Assembly (NCBI GenBank): GCA_900696525.1
Contig: CAADGL010000012.1
Location: 496,001-560,000 of the forward strand
DNA length: 64,000 bases
Direction of reading: 5' to 3'
Source of the DNA: an uncultured Planctomycetota bacterium
Lineage (GTDB): Bacteria > Planctomycetota > Phycisphaerae > UBA1845 > Fen-1342
Part shown: one piece after another, positions 49,219 through 53,809 of the stretch
Position numbering within the stretch: position 1 is the stretch's first letter
How the letters are laid out: the number at the start of each line of letters is the position of its first letter
Notes under the pieces: model-generated
The model's database searches: none
Told to the model about the DNA's origin: nothing
Seen by the model: the letters and a program-made list of their open reading frames with translations, nothing else
Translations under genes and position numbers: made by a program

Positions 49219-50016
49219 CTACGGCGCCCCGCCGGGAATGGCGCTGCGCCGCTCCGGCGATGGGCTGCCGGCGTAGCGCACGGCGGGCCCGAACTCGTCG
49301 CCGCGGAAGGTGTTGCCCAGGTAGGTGTCGCGCACGCGCTGGTTGTTGACCAGTTCGGCGGGCGTGCCGGAGCAGATCACCGTGCCCTCGTGGATGACGT
49401 AGCTGCGGTCGGTGACGCGCAGCGTCTCGTGCACATTGTGGTCGGTCAGCAGAATGGAGATGCCGTCGTTGCGCAGACGCACGATCTCCTCGCGCAGCTC
49501 CTCGATCGCCTTGGGGGCGACGCCGCTGAAGGGCTCATCGAGCAGAATCAGGCGCGGCCGCGTCACCAGGGCGCGGGCGATCTCCAGCTTTCGTCGCTCG
49601 CCGCCGGAGATGTTCTTCGCCATGTTCCGCCGGACTACGATCAGGCTGAACTGCTCGAGCAGCTCCTCGACGCGGCGGCGCCGCTCGGCGCGCGTCAGCC
49701 GCATGGTCTCGCAGATGGCCATCAGGTTCTGCTCGACGGTCATGCGCTGAAAGACGCTGGATTCCTGGGGGAGATAACCCACGCCGCGGCGGGCGCGGCG
49801 GTACATGGGCAAGTGAGTGACATCGACGCCCTGAAAGCGAACGCTGCCGCGATCAGGCCGGATCATGCCGACGGTCATGCGAAAGGTCGTGGTCTTTCCG
49901 GCGCCGTTGTTTCCGAGCAGGCCGACGATTTCGCCGTCCCCGACATGACAATCGACGCAGTTGACGACGACACGGCCGCCGTAGGACTTCACAAGTTGCT
50001 GGGTTTCAAGGAGCAT
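49219..50016 (-). CDS. lptB: LPS export ABC transporter ATP-binding protein LptB
   Basis: ATPase of the LptB2FGC complex that lifts lipopolysaccharide from the inner membrane. The 265-residue protein has Walker A GNNGAGKTTTF, the signature ISGGERRKLEIARALV, Walker B LILLDEPFSGVAP and the switch His (LTDHNVHETL), all typical of LptB. A 25-residue C-terminal tail (FRGDEFGPAVRYAGSPSPERRS) is longer than in E. coli. LptA, LptC, LptF and LptG genes are not adjacent. The start is preceded by the DnaA-box cluster. Confidence 0.93.
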   Translation of the reverse strand: MLLETQQLVKSYGGRVVVNCVDCHVGDGEIVGLLGNNGAGKTTTFRMTVGMIRPDRGSVRFQGVDVTHLPMYRRARRGVGYLPQESSVFQRMTVEQNLMAICETMRLTRAERRRRVEELLEQFSLIVVRRNMAKNISGGERRKLEIARALVTRPRLILLDEPFSGVAPKAIEELREEIVRLRNDGISILLTDHNVHETLRVTDRSYVIHEGTVICSGTPAELVNNQRVRDTYLGNTFRGDEFGPAVRYAGSPSPERRSAIPGGAP

Positions 50017-50360
50017 TCTGACCCCGGCCGAAGCGGTTTTCCGGCCTGTGGATAACTTGTGGACAATGGATGTTGACAAGTTTCGGGCGGCCCGTTTCCG
50101 GTGCTGTCTGGTGGTCGACGATCGCGCCGCGGTCCCCAATTTCCGACGCGGCCCCGATCTCGCGCACGATGTTATTATGAATGAACTTACGTTTGCGCTC
50201 GACGCGCCGCGGGCCTGCGGCATCGCGTGCTCGCCGCCTCCGATTTGCGCCACCCGCTTGACGGATATTCGTCACATCACAGCCAGTGTTGAAAACCTCT
50301 CGCGACGGGGTTGACGACCCGTTGTCGCCGACATAGACGCCCCGTCTCCCGCGCCGGCCT
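50017..50360. other. intergenic region with a DnaA-box cluster (candidate origin)
   Basis: The 344 bases between lptB and the first signal peptidase gene carry no gene that I can support. They contain three same-orientation DnaA boxes at 50047-50079 and an AT-rich stretch (about 50168-50192, GATGTTATTATGAATG and on). The AT-rich part lies some 90 bases from the boxes, as in a DNA unwinding element. The gap also contains an imperfect inverted repeat near 50307-50330. Confidence 0.6.
50047..50079 (-). promoter_or_regulatory. cluster of three DnaA boxes
   Basis: Read on the minus strand: TTGTCAACA (50079-50071, one mismatch to TTGTCCACA), TTGTCCACA (50066-50058) and TTATCCACA (50055-50047, perfect). 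Starts are 13 and 11 bases apart, so all lie near one face of the helix. The closely spaced pair with a 2-base gap is typical of chromosomal origins. Confidence 0.7.
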
Positions 50361-51938
50361 TCACCGAATGAACCGCACCCGCCCAAGATCGGGAATGCCC
50401 CAGCGGCCGCGTTCATCCATCGGCAGGAGGCCCGGAAGGTACACAAGAAACGCCCGCCCGACAATCTGGTCCGCCGGCACCGTGCCGATCTGGTACTCGC
50501 CGCGCTCGTAGCGTCCCTCCAGCCGCGAGCCGAAACGCGTCCATTCGCGGCTGTCGTGGCTGTTCGAGCTGTTGTCGCCCATGACGAAATAGGCGTCAGG
50601 CCCGAGCATGAAGGGACTGCCGGCGAAGGCCCGCCGCGTGTCGCTCTCCTCGTAGGTGTAGTGAACGTCGCGCTCGATCCGCAGCCGGCGCAGGTCAAAC
50701 GACAGCCCGGCGCCGGTGAGGCTCAGCTCGATCGGCCGGTGGCGCCGCTGCCGCCGCAGCAGACGCACGTCACAGGCGTAACCAGACTCGTCGGTCTGCA
50801 CGACCGGCCAGCCGTCGACGCGCACGTAGGCGCGCCGGTCTACGTGGCCGAACTCGATGGGGCGCGCCTGGCCGTCGATGAATGGACGGACGCGCCCCTG
50901 CCATGTTGCGGACTCGCCCTCGACGCCGGTCAGCTCCAGGCGGACGTCGCCGCTGCGCGCGAACGTTGCGACGAAGCGCCGCTCATGGTGGTCGATGCAC
51001 ACTTCAAGCGAGCCGTCGCCGCCGACGGCGATGAACTCGGTCAGCAGGCGCACGTCGCTGACGAATGCCCGGGGCGCGCCGCCCTTGTAGCGATCGATGA
51101 ACTCGCTGTTGTACGCCGCCACGTCGCGGAAATAGGCGCCGCCGAGGCCGGAGTCGAAGGTGAGCGTCCGCCCAGTCGTGCCGGCGGCCCGGTAACGAAG
51201 CACCCGCGTATCCAAGCCGCTCCAGCCGGCGACATCCGTCGCACCGTCGGGCGCAAGCCAGCGCGGCGGCGCATCCGCCGGCAGGAGATCCTGCGAAAAA
51301 ACGGGCGCCCACAACGCGCTTTGGGCGGCGGCGGTCTTGCGCGCGATGCGGCCGTCGATGTACACGTCGCCGTCGATGATCTCGACCGTCTCGCCCGGCA
51401 ACGCGATGAGGCGTTTGATGAAGTTCGTCTGCGGGTCGGCGGGATCGCGGAACACGATCACGTCCCAGCGCCGCGGTCCGAACCAGCCGCCGAGAAGGTA
51501 GGGCCACTTGTGGACCAGGATGCGGTCGCCGGCGCGCGGCGGCGTTTCCGGGGGCAGCGGGGAGTAGCGTCGGCAGTTCGGACAGAACGCCAGTTGCGGG
51601 GGACGAAAGAGCGGGTCGTTGGCCTGTGCCGTTCCGACGGGGCCGAAATCGGATGAGGCGCCGCACTCGGGGCAGCGCAGCACGCCGTGCATGCCGAGCA
51701 GTGCCGGCGCCATCGACCCCGTGGGGATGATGAACGCCTCGATCATGAACGCGCGGAAGACAAACGCGAGGATCAGCGCCGTGAGCACGGTCTGGATAGT
51801 CTCGATGATTCGCGCCCCGGCGCCGGCCAGCGCGTCGGTGTCGGGGGATGAAGCGGTTCCGGTCGCCAGCGCCGAGTCGCCGGTCAGAGGGGACGCCGCT
51901 ACAGCCTCGTTGCTCTCAGGAGACGCCAAGCGCCACAC
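50361..51938 (-). CDS. lepB: signal peptidase I with zinc-ribbon insert (1)
   Basis: Membrane serine-lysine protease that removes signal peptides. The 525-residue protein has one N-terminal transmembrane helix (about 47-70), the catalytic Ser75 in PTGSMAP, a zinc-ribbon insert CPEC (89-92) ... CPNC (119-122), Lys175 in NFIKRLIALPGE, and the box with GDNSSNSHDSR near 470. About 270 residues of beta-rich sequence separate the Lys and the last box. E. coli LepB has no zinc ribbon. A second gene of the same type lies 4 bases upstream of its start, so both form one unit. Divergent from lptB by one intergenic region but transcribed in the same direction. Confidence 0.9.
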   Translation of the reverse strand: MWRLASPESNEAVAASPLTGDSALATGTASSPDTDALAGAGARIIETIQTVLTALILAFVFRAFMIEAFIIPTGSMAPALLGMHGVLRCPECGASSDFGPVGTAQANDPLFRPPQLAFCPNCRRYSPLPPETPPRAGDRILVHKWPYLLGGWFGPRRWDVIVFRDPADPQTNFIKRLIALPGETVEIIDGDVYIDGRIARKTAAAQSALWAPVFSQDLLPADAPPRWLAPDGATDVAGWSGLDTRVLRYRAAGTTGRTLTFDSGLGGAYFRDVAAYNSEFIDRYKGGAPRAFVSDVRLLTEFIAVGGDGSLEVCIDHHERRFVATFARSGDVRLELTGVEGESATWQGRVRPFIDGQARPIEFGHVDRRAYVRVDGWPVVQTDESGYACDVRLLRRQRRHRPIELSLTGAGLSFDLRRLRIERDVHYTYEESDTRRAFAGSPFMLGPDAYFVMGDNSSNSHDSREWTRFGSRLEGRYERGEYQIGTVPADQIVGRAFLVYLPGLLPMDERGRWGIPDLGRVRFIR

Positions 51939-51942
51939 TGCC

Positions 51943-53586
51943 TCAGTGAATCCAGCGAATCCGGCCGGCGTCGGGGACGATCGTGACGCCCCAGGAGGTC
52001 GCGGGCAGGAAGCCGGGCCAGTAGACCAGGAACGCGGGTCCGATCATCTGGCTCGAAGGAACCGTCCCGAGATGGTATTCGCCGCGCTCCAGGGCGGCGA
52101 CCAGATGCGGCCCGAGTTCGTCGCGGCTCCACATGCGGCTGTCTCCGCTGGCCGGGCTGTTGTCGCCCAGTACAAAGTACTCATCGTCATCGAGCGAGAT
52201 CGGGTTGCCCTGCACGCCGTTCCCCAGCGCATAATGCCGGCCCATGGCATCGGTGAGCGTGCCCTGCCCCGGGTCGGGCGGCGCGCCCGCGGGCAGCCGC
52301 CGAAGGTAGCCCGAGCGATAGTGGACATCGCGGTCGATGCGCACGTGCGACAGCTCGGCCCGGACGCGTGCCGCGCCAATGCGCACCGGCACGCGCGGGC
52401 GCAGCTCAGCGCGGGCACGCGCCAGATCGGGCGTAACGGCGTAGCTGTCGGGAGAAGTCAGCAGTGGGCGGCCGTTGACCGCGAGCACGACCTGGTAGTC
52501 GGCATGGCCAAGCGAGAGCCGGACGGATCTTCCGCTTGGGATTCGTTGCTCGGCCGTTCCCCAGGACTCGCGCACGCGCGTCGCGAGGTCTTCGGATTCG
52601 AGCGTCACGCGGCCGTCGGCATAGATCCGCGCGAAAAAGCGCCTGGTGTACTTGTCGAGAGCCAGCTCAACGAAGCCATCGGCGTCGCCTTCGAGCATGC
52701 GGACATCGGCGGCGAGCCGCACGTCGGTCACGACCTCGAACCAGGCGCCGCTGCCATCGGCGACGCGGTTGGCGTTCAGCGCGTTGTAGCCGTAGAAGTC
52801 GATGATCTCGCCGTCGCGCGTCGTCGGATCGGGGTCCGTGACGAATTGGAGCTGCTCCAGGTCGCGCCCGGCGCCGTCGAAGCGCAGCACGCGCTGGCGC
52901 GGATCGCCCCAGCCGCTGTTTGGAGACACGATCTGCCAGCGCGGGTGATAGCTGCGGCCTGGCGCGACGCCGGCAAACCCGCCGGGCCGGGCGGGGAGGT
53001 GATCGTGGCTGTAGTAGGGCATCCAGAGCGCCTCCTGCGCCTGGGGCGACTTGCGCGCCACGCGGCCATCGACCCACACGTCGCCGTCGATGAGTTCGAT
53101 CTGCTCGCCGGGAAGTCCGATAAGGCGCTTGATAAAATTCGTCTGGCCGTCCTTGGGGTCCTTGAACACGACGACGTCCCAGCGTCTCAGCGCGCGGTCC
53201 GGCCAGAGGTCGTGAACCCAGCCATGGACGACGACGCGGTCGCCCGCCTTGCTGTTGTGCGCGCTGCGTGGATCGCCGCTCCAGCGGCAGTTTGGGCAGA
53301 TCGGCTCGGGCCAGGTCGTGCCGTGCAAGCCGAGCTTGTACTCGAAGCCGCAATTCGTGCAGGTCTGCACCGTGTGCTGGCCGGCCAGCGTTTCCGCCAT
53401 GGACCCCGTCGGGATAATGAACAGCGGCAGAAAGAACTGCTTGAGCACCAGCAGCCAGACGAAAAGCTCGACGAACGAGCCGATCTGCGCCAGCACCGGC
53501 TCGCGCCGGGACGCGGACGTCCGGTTGGCGGCCCCGGGGCTGCGGCTTGTGGTTGCACCCTTCGCCAAGTCAGGGAGTTCCGTCAC
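51943..53586 (-). CDS. lepB: signal peptidase I with zinc-ribbon insert (2)
   Basis: A second type I signal peptidase, 547 residues from the GTG at 53586. The same layout is seen: one transmembrane helix, PTGSMAET with the catalytic Ser (about residue 62), zinc-ribbon cysteines CTNC ... CPNC 14 to 38 residues later, NFIKRLIGLPGE with the catalytic Lys, and GDNSPASGDSRMW at the end. Most of the central region is beta-rich. A TTG at 53625 would add 13 residues and put Ser at the same position (75) as in the neighbour, so it cannot be excluded; neither start has a strong ribosome binding site. It lies directly upstream of its sister gene. Confidence 0.88.
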   Translation of the reverse strand: MTELPDLAKGATTSRSPGAANRTSASRREPVLAQIGSFVELFVWLLVLKQFFLPLFIIPTGSMAETLAGQHTVQTCTNCGFEYKLGLHGTTWPEPICPNCRWSGDPRSAHNSKAGDRVVVHGWVHDLWPDRALRRWDVVVFKDPKDGQTNFIKRLIGLPGEQIELIDGDVWVDGRVARKSPQAQEALWMPYYSHDHLPARPGGFAGVAPGRSYHPRWQIVSPNSGWGDPRQRVLRFDGAGRDLEQLQFVTDPDPTTRDGEIIDFYGYNALNANRVADGSGAWFEVVTDVRLAADVRMLEGDADGFVELALDKYTRRFFARIYADGRVTLESEDLATRVRESWGTAEQRIPSGRSVRLSLGHADYQVVLAVNGRPLLTSPDSYAVTPDLARARAELRPRVPVRIGAARVRAELSHVRIDRDVHYRSGYLRRLPAGAPPDPGQGTLTDAMGRHYALGNGVQGNPISLDDDEYFVLGDNSPASGDSRMWSRDELGPHLVAALERGEYHLGTVPSSQMIGPAFLVYWPGFLPATSWGVTIVPDAGRIRWIH

Positions 53587-53809
53587 GACGGGCCAGCGCG
53601 TCGCGTTCGTGGGCCAGCCTAGCAACGGGCTCGGCGCGGGTCAATCCGCGCGATCCAGTGCGCCCGGGGGTGGGGGCATGCGGGCGACGAGCCGAGCCGC
53701 TACCCGCCGCGATTCACGAAGTTTTCCAAGCGAGAGCGCGGCGGCGGCGGTATCATGAGGGCGCTGAGCCGCTGTTTCATTTGGCGCCGCGGACAAGGGA
53801 GGAATCCTG

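Follow-up and report, generated by a model that had tools for sequence, protein, structure and literature searches.

Tandem type I signal peptidases with a zinc-ribbon-like insert and a jelly-roll domain in an uncultured Planctomycetota bacterium

Signal peptidase I, an antibiotic target, is an enzyme found almost universally. In this work, we analysed a stretch of 64,000 nucleotides (hereafter the window) from an uncultured Planctomycetota bacterium of the class Phycisphaerae (GenBank assembly GCA_900696525.1, contig CAADGL010000012.1, positions 496,001 to 560,000 of the forward strand), in which two adjacent genes, here called A and B, are assigned by sequence to the type I signal peptidases, peptidase family S26 (S26A). 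The explanation that we consider fairly likely as a whole is that A and B are tandem active signal peptidases, each with a structural Cys4 zinc ribbon and a jelly roll. The literature searched gave no account of a signal peptidase I with either a zinc ribbon or a concanavalin-like domain, and the passage from PMC11131199 concerns lipoprotein signal peptides only. As far as we found, this is a known enzyme carrying an architecture that is apparently undescribed and widespread in Planctomycetota, whose signal peptidase I commonly holds two extra modules, one of them in the loop after the catalytic Ser.

Catalytic body, four-Cys insert and jelly roll

Genes A and B lie head to tail, the stop of A being separated from the start of B by 4 bases (Table 1). 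Both products score above the curated cut-offs of Peptidase_S26 (Pfam PF10502; B 108.8 bits, A 85.0 bits, cut-off 22.9) and of the NCBIfam signal peptidase I model TIGR02227 (B 102, A 74.2, cut-off 47), in agreement with the first-pass annotation of this DNA, which had named two adjacent signal peptidases I. Its statement that the tandem copies have diverged strongly also held, A and B being 36% identical over a 557-column alignment; the span that it gave does cover two minus-strand open reading frames, but its end at 53586 falls 39 bases within the listed frame of A. The start codon of A is uncertain, and its first ~40 residues are of low confidence. In PHROGs, one family of unknown function was matched, with only the core covered. 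The genome (3.6 Mb, 22 contigs, 93% complete) contains four Peptidase_S26 matches, two pieces each in A and B, and a profile search of the same genome found no S26 peptidase besides these two, so that the pair is probably its entire S26 signal peptidase set.

For the analysis of conservation, A and B were aligned with 106 full-length homologues from 77 contig loci, all titled as Planctomycetota groups. The loci came from the best 80 of 242 contig matches, and open-ended rows, rows shorter than 440 aa and duplicates had been excluded before counting. The catalytic Ser, the general-base Lys, the GDN of the GDNS box (which begins at residue 454 in B) and the residues corresponding to S493, D495 and R497 of A were each conserved in 108/108 members, and the catalytic strands IIPTGSM and NFIKRLI show no difference between A and B. 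Since every catalytic residue is present in both proteins, catalytically dead copies were considered unlikely, and A and B are expected to be active enzymes. An AlphaFold2 model of A, built on the 108 rows, reached a predicted local distance difference test score (pLDDT) of 88.4 and a predicted template modelling score (pTM) of 0.87, and only the first ~33 residues fell below 50. In the comparison with E. coli LepB, which the first-pass annotation had proposed, the model matched LepB (3s04) in VIA with Z 13.9, a root-mean-square deviation (rmsd) of 2.6 and 32% identity over 146 aligned residues, within a model span of 64-560. By analogy with LepB, the catalytic body would lie outside the cytoplasm, with the predicted membrane helix placed before the Ser.

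Right after the catalytic Ser, both proteins contain a CxxC..CxxC insert like a zinc ribbon, as had been noticed at the first pass, and the first ribbon Cys stands 14 residues past the Ser. C89, C92 and C110 (numbering of A) were kept in 108/108 aligned members and C113 in 107/108, which answers the earlier question of whether relatives conserve the four Cys. This conservation was not built in by the contig scan, since its patterns (FIIPTGSM and RRWDV[VI]VF) contain no Cys. Moreover, the 560 residues of A include exactly four Cys, all within the ribbon, so they are not the by-product of a Cys-rich protein, and chance Cys were ruled out on these two grounds.

The insert resembles a zinc-ribbon module, for which zinc binding is predicted. 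We collected 84 slices, namely A, B and the 82 of the 106 homologues that have two CxxC and fewer than 85 residues, in which the four Cys are invariant by selection; Zn_ribbon_4 (Pfam) matched 48 of these 84 at E<=0.05, with a best value of 2.3e-5. As a control, the non-Cys residues of ten slices were shuffled while the Cys positions were retained, and zinc-binding Pfam models matched 9/10 real slices versus 1/10 shuffles. A search of the ribbon profile against the PDB reached rubredoxins at E 0.0013; designed and CTCF zinc fingers, with which Cys spacing rather than fold is shared, ranked above rubredoxin. In the model of A, the region around the Cys is predicted as a strand (84-88), the first knuckle, a second strand (95-99) and then the second knuckle. 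When a ribbon slice was folded alone, its fold matches (Foldseek, VIA) were dominated by zinc-ribbon or zinc-binding entries, including MCM, ribosomal ribbons, HOIP, rubrerythrin and LysW, in which we take the matched domains to be zinc domains. In some lineages the insert is longer, holding 6-10 Cys and as many as four CxxC ahead of the GD strand, and two long-insert homologues have six CxxC up to the Lys. At seven loci (L172, L230, L177, L231, L189, L201 and L202), four to six CxxC pairs were seen between Ser and Lys, like two or three stacked ribbons.

The large extra beta domain of the first-pass annotation belongs to the high-confidence part of the same model, in which it appears as a jelly roll replacing domain II of LepB. 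Residues 206-435 of A aligned with CBM66 (4azz) in VIA with Z 17.0 and rmsd 3.1 over 157 residues, and Foldseek supported the jelly roll at E 8.6e-8. Other concanavalin-like jelly rolls also matched the model, many of them starting at residue 202; as the matches include many unrelated concanavalin-like proteins, we drew no function from them.

Table 1 Features of the signal peptidase pair and its neighbour, with positions in the window.
Feature	Position	Strand	Residues	Remarks
Gene A, signal peptidase I paralogue	51943..53625	minus	560 aa	First of pair; TTG start
A predicted single membrane helix	53431..53496	minus	44-65	AlphaFold2 model secondary structure; most fixed A/B differences here
A catalytic Ser	53401..53403	minus	Ser75 (PTGSM)	Conserved 108/108
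A zinc-ribbon-like insert	53278..53370	minus	86-116	C89, C92, C110, C113
A general-base Lys	53128..53130	minus	Lys166	Conserved 108/108
A concanavalin-A-like/CBM66-like jelly roll (model)	52321..53022	minus	202-435	Place of LepB domain II; Foldseek, VIA
A GDNS box	52156..52167	minus	487-490	Followed by S493, D495, R497; GDN and these three 108/108
Gene B, signal peptidase I paralogue	50361..51938	minus	525 aa	GTG start; adjoins LptB-like gene
B putative membrane helix	51744..51809	minus		Alignment with A
B catalytic Ser	51714..51716	minus	Ser75	Coordinates mapped from sequence
B zinc-ribbon-like insert	51564..51683	minus	86-125	C89, C92, C119, C122; alignment
B general-base Lys	51414..51416	minus	Lys175	Coordinates mapped from sequence
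B putative jelly-roll domain	50661..51308	minus	211-426	Alignment with A only
LptB-like ABC ATPase gene	49219..50253	minus		Directly downstream of B; Pfam ABC_tran and BCA_ABC_TP_C; synteny

Joint loss of the ribbon cysteines

The family profile matched at E<=1e-10 in 289/294 genomes drawn from the phylum and at E<=1e-60 in 284/298 genomes of the class. Homologues were read from selected matches among these (loci L142-L392), and the final set contained 360 aligned homologues, of which 20 with the Ser or Lys unaligned were dropped to leave 340. An insert of more than 30 residues was present in 319 of them, with the following numbers of Cys: none in 75 inserts, one in 3, two in no insert, three in 4, four in 191, five in 30 and more than five in 16, which gives 237 with at least four. 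The Cys-less families labelled f9 and f15 were deliberately oversampled, so the 75 should not be taken as a frequency, and the finding is the gap between zero and four.

In the Cys-less homologues the insert itself is kept, with CPxCG mostly replaced by S/D-x-x-S/T-G and CPNC mostly by DPMT or similar. Motifs like SPxTG..DPMT occur in most of the loci L217, L218, L220-L222, L227, L262-L291, L348-L375 and L386-L390, where the Cys-less ribbons span whole sampled families of the class; in f9 and f15, every aligned copy read has retained the insert and replaced all ribbon Cys. In the two f9 genomes with two copies each that were read, no mixed pair of Cys-bearing and Cys-less peptidases was found, as L217 with L218 and both copies in L390 are all Cys-less.

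A tree of 302 rows, made with the insert columns removed, placed the Cys-less sequences in nine clades, and a 73-row tree gave six changes, or seven after two rows were dropped. In approximately unbiased (AU) tests, a single clade was rejected for all 29 Cys-less rows of the 73-row set (p-AU 2.65e-72), for the 26 Cys-less rows of f9, f15, f11 and f12 (p 0.0067) and for the 7 Cys-less rows of f11 and f12 (p 0.017), which points to at least three losses. The six Cys-less rows of f12 as one clade were not rejected in the AU test (p 0.438), which makes the number of losses uncertain. Thus at least three lineages, and probably four or more, have each lost all four Cys jointly. The all-or-none counts of Cys, together with this joint loss from an insert that is kept, favour one joint, structural metal site.

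At L338 and L100 the insert has three ribbon Cys, a rare state that may be an intermediate in Cys loss. In addition, the second copies of family f79 (L382, L377 and L385) are divergent paralogues whose insert has only three Cys in the alignment, where the catalytic Ser also aligns with Ala in L382 and the Lys with Ser in L377. These second copies may be inactive.

Origin of the pair and gene neighbourhood

A profile match was present in 61/61 genomes searched, 27 of which belong to the family of the window. Within these 27 genomes, both copies lie on one contig in 24 and on different contigs in 2, and a single copy was found in 1, where the contig of the named counterpart (L053) ends shortly past the gene. 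At E<=1e-60, the search of the class found no more than one copy in members of other families of the order; two copies outside the window's family were seen in G030, a contaminated 9.3-Mb genome. In the 302-row tree, the A clade (24 rows) and the B clade (23 rows) each had a support of 100 and were sisters with a support of 96. These well-supported sister clades indicate that a single tandem duplication, in the ancestor of the window's family, gave rise to the pair.

The LptB-like gene comes next after B, or after the single gene, in 23/31 loci. In the other eight, the contig ends soon after in five, A stands alone in two, and L059 lacks the neighbour despite room for it; for the two A-only loci, the B copies of the same assemblies (L056 and L057) adjoin an LptB-like gene. 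Since this neighbour follows B or the single gene, the synteny indicates that B occupies the ancestral position and that A is the derived copy. The neighbour could also reflect a possible link of the signal peptidase to outer-envelope building.

Comparison of 23 A-type with 22 B-type sequences identified eight positions fixed differently at 90%. Six of them fall in residues 44-80, that is, in the membrane helix and just after it, one is at 135 and one at 536, and none was found in the ribbon or the jelly roll. In the catalytic boxes A is 62% and 52% identical to B, compared with 32% for the ribbon and 31% for the jelly roll.

Elsewhere in the window, the product of the plus-strand gene at 54484-56157 matches BNR_2 weakly, and its C-terminus carries two DLNGDG/DLDGDG..GQADLG repeats, which we presume to be dockerin-like.

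Proposed working, alternatives and known systems

According to the working that we propose, one N-terminal membrane helix would anchor the catalytic body at the outer face of the inner membrane, where the signal peptidase chemistry itself, with its Ser-Lys dyad, would be ordinary. A Cys4 zinc ribbon would have grown from the loop that connects the catalytic Ser to the following strand of the active-site sheet, and a CBM66/concanavalin-A-like jelly roll would have been added where LepB has domain II. Because the ribbon grew from that loop, which the architecture of LepB presumably places beside the cleft, it should stand next to the active site. The metal, probably zinc, would be structural and hold the loop as a rigid ribbon, as suggested by the loss of all four ligands together while the scaffold stays; in metal-free lineages, the same scaffold would be held by the S/D-x-x-S/T-G ... 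D-P-M-T motif. The ribbon may then offer a surface on which the membrane, the translocon or the emerging chain docks or is positioned. We infer the catalytic activity of the pair, the identity of the metal, its structural role and the docking role, and likewise the division of labour between A and B discussed below.

The four Cys might instead be paired in two disulfides, which would staple the loop within an oxidising periplasm with no metal bound, an explanation that we regard as unlikely and yet as a real rival, given that the genome encodes a VKOR-type protein. The insert follows the membrane helix and is therefore expected outside the cytoplasm, and the all-or-none loss of Cys would also be compatible with two interlocked disulfides. 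However, the CPxCG/CPNC spacing and its context match zinc-ribbon and rubredoxin profiles while shuffles with the Cys held fixed do not, no DsbB was found in the genome, which speaks against disulfides, and relatives with 8-10 Cys carry them in extra CxxC pairs, as expected of repeated ribbons. Several points weigh against the zinc-ribbon explanation and the joint loss on which it draws. The VKOR-type protein is above its cut-off and is a likely disulfide former, so the Cys could be oxidised; no Pfam zinc-ribbon match with a displayed cut-off reached the curated gathering score, despite low E-values; and the ribbon slice folded alone had low confidence (pLDDT 64.6), with individually weak matches (Foldseek E at least 0.69, VIA Z 2.6-3.5). 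Furthermore, the groups in the AU tests were named after the tree had been seen and the searches were short, and 21/340 homologues are without the insert, which means that the ribbon is not required for signal peptidase function in general. The first-pass annotation had also suggested that the zinc site could sense metal or position substrates, and a sensor of zinc or redox state by which the peptidase is switched would profit from a first ribbon Cys so near the catalytic Ser. We give very little credence to such a sensor, since whole families (f9 and f15) have retained the insert while replacing all four Cys in it, and a loss of ligands with the scaffold kept would be unlikely for it; nor did the two two-copy f9 genomes read contain a mixed pair.

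With respect to the two copies, an alternative is that they serve different chemical classes of exports, for example sugar-decorated or C-terminally tagged proteins, which the jelly roll would choose. The likeness of this domain to the carbohydrate-binding CBM66 and the retention of the pair in the family are in line with such a choice, but we consider it doubtful, because the jelly roll has no fixed residue specific to A or B and belongs to the parts that orthologues conserve least (34-39% identity), folds of the concanavalin type are widespread without necessarily binding sugar, and the catalytic strands of A and B are identical. The LPxTG-like or dockerin-tailed substrate classes of the first-pass annotation were set aside, since neither the sequence nor the A/B differences point to them. 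As A differs mainly in its membrane helix, A and B probably differ in the signal peptides or partners that they meet within the membrane.

Returning to the zinc ribbon, we put forward a broader proposal only tentatively: that the Planctomycetota ribbon, set in the active-site loop of the signal peptidase, is a docking or gating part of the export machinery outside the cytoplasm, which several lineages have independently made metal-free by exchanging all four ligands (CPxCG..CPNC to SPxTG..DPMT), like the zinc-economy switch of ribosomal proteins but located on the cell's exterior. Should the ribbon indeed bind zinc beyond the cytoplasm and shape the cleft, this would represent a new way of tuning the protease, and the natural Cys-bearing and Cys-less versions offer a ready comparison for the role of the metal.

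Among known systems, the insert shares CxxC..CxxC, CPxCG/CPNC knuckles and short strands with zinc ribbons and rubredoxin knuckles (Zn_ribbon_3, _4, _8 and DZR), but unlike them it is expected outside the cytoplasm, in the loop of a protease, and has repeatedly lost its Cys while being kept. Ribosomal proteins exist in versions with Cys-bearing and Cys-less ribbons, and as in the insert, all metal-binding Cys of the ribbon are replaced in concert while the ribbon stays in place; the protein is a different one, and no pair of Cys-bearing and Cys-less copies within one genome was found here. The jelly roll of A has its fold in common with CBM66 and concanavalin-A-like domains (Z 17.0 over 157 residues), whereas the identity is 12-13%, the domain sits in a membrane protease and sugar binding is only putative. 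The signal peptidase of Chlamydia is likewise enlarged. E. coli LepB (S26A) lacks an insert after the Ser, spans the membrane with two helices and has a smaller and different domain II. The catalytic body, the Ser-Lys dyad, the GDN box and the S/D/R set are common to LepB and the pair described here, while A and B differ from it in their single predicted membrane helix, their four-Cys ribbon and their jelly roll of ~230 residues.

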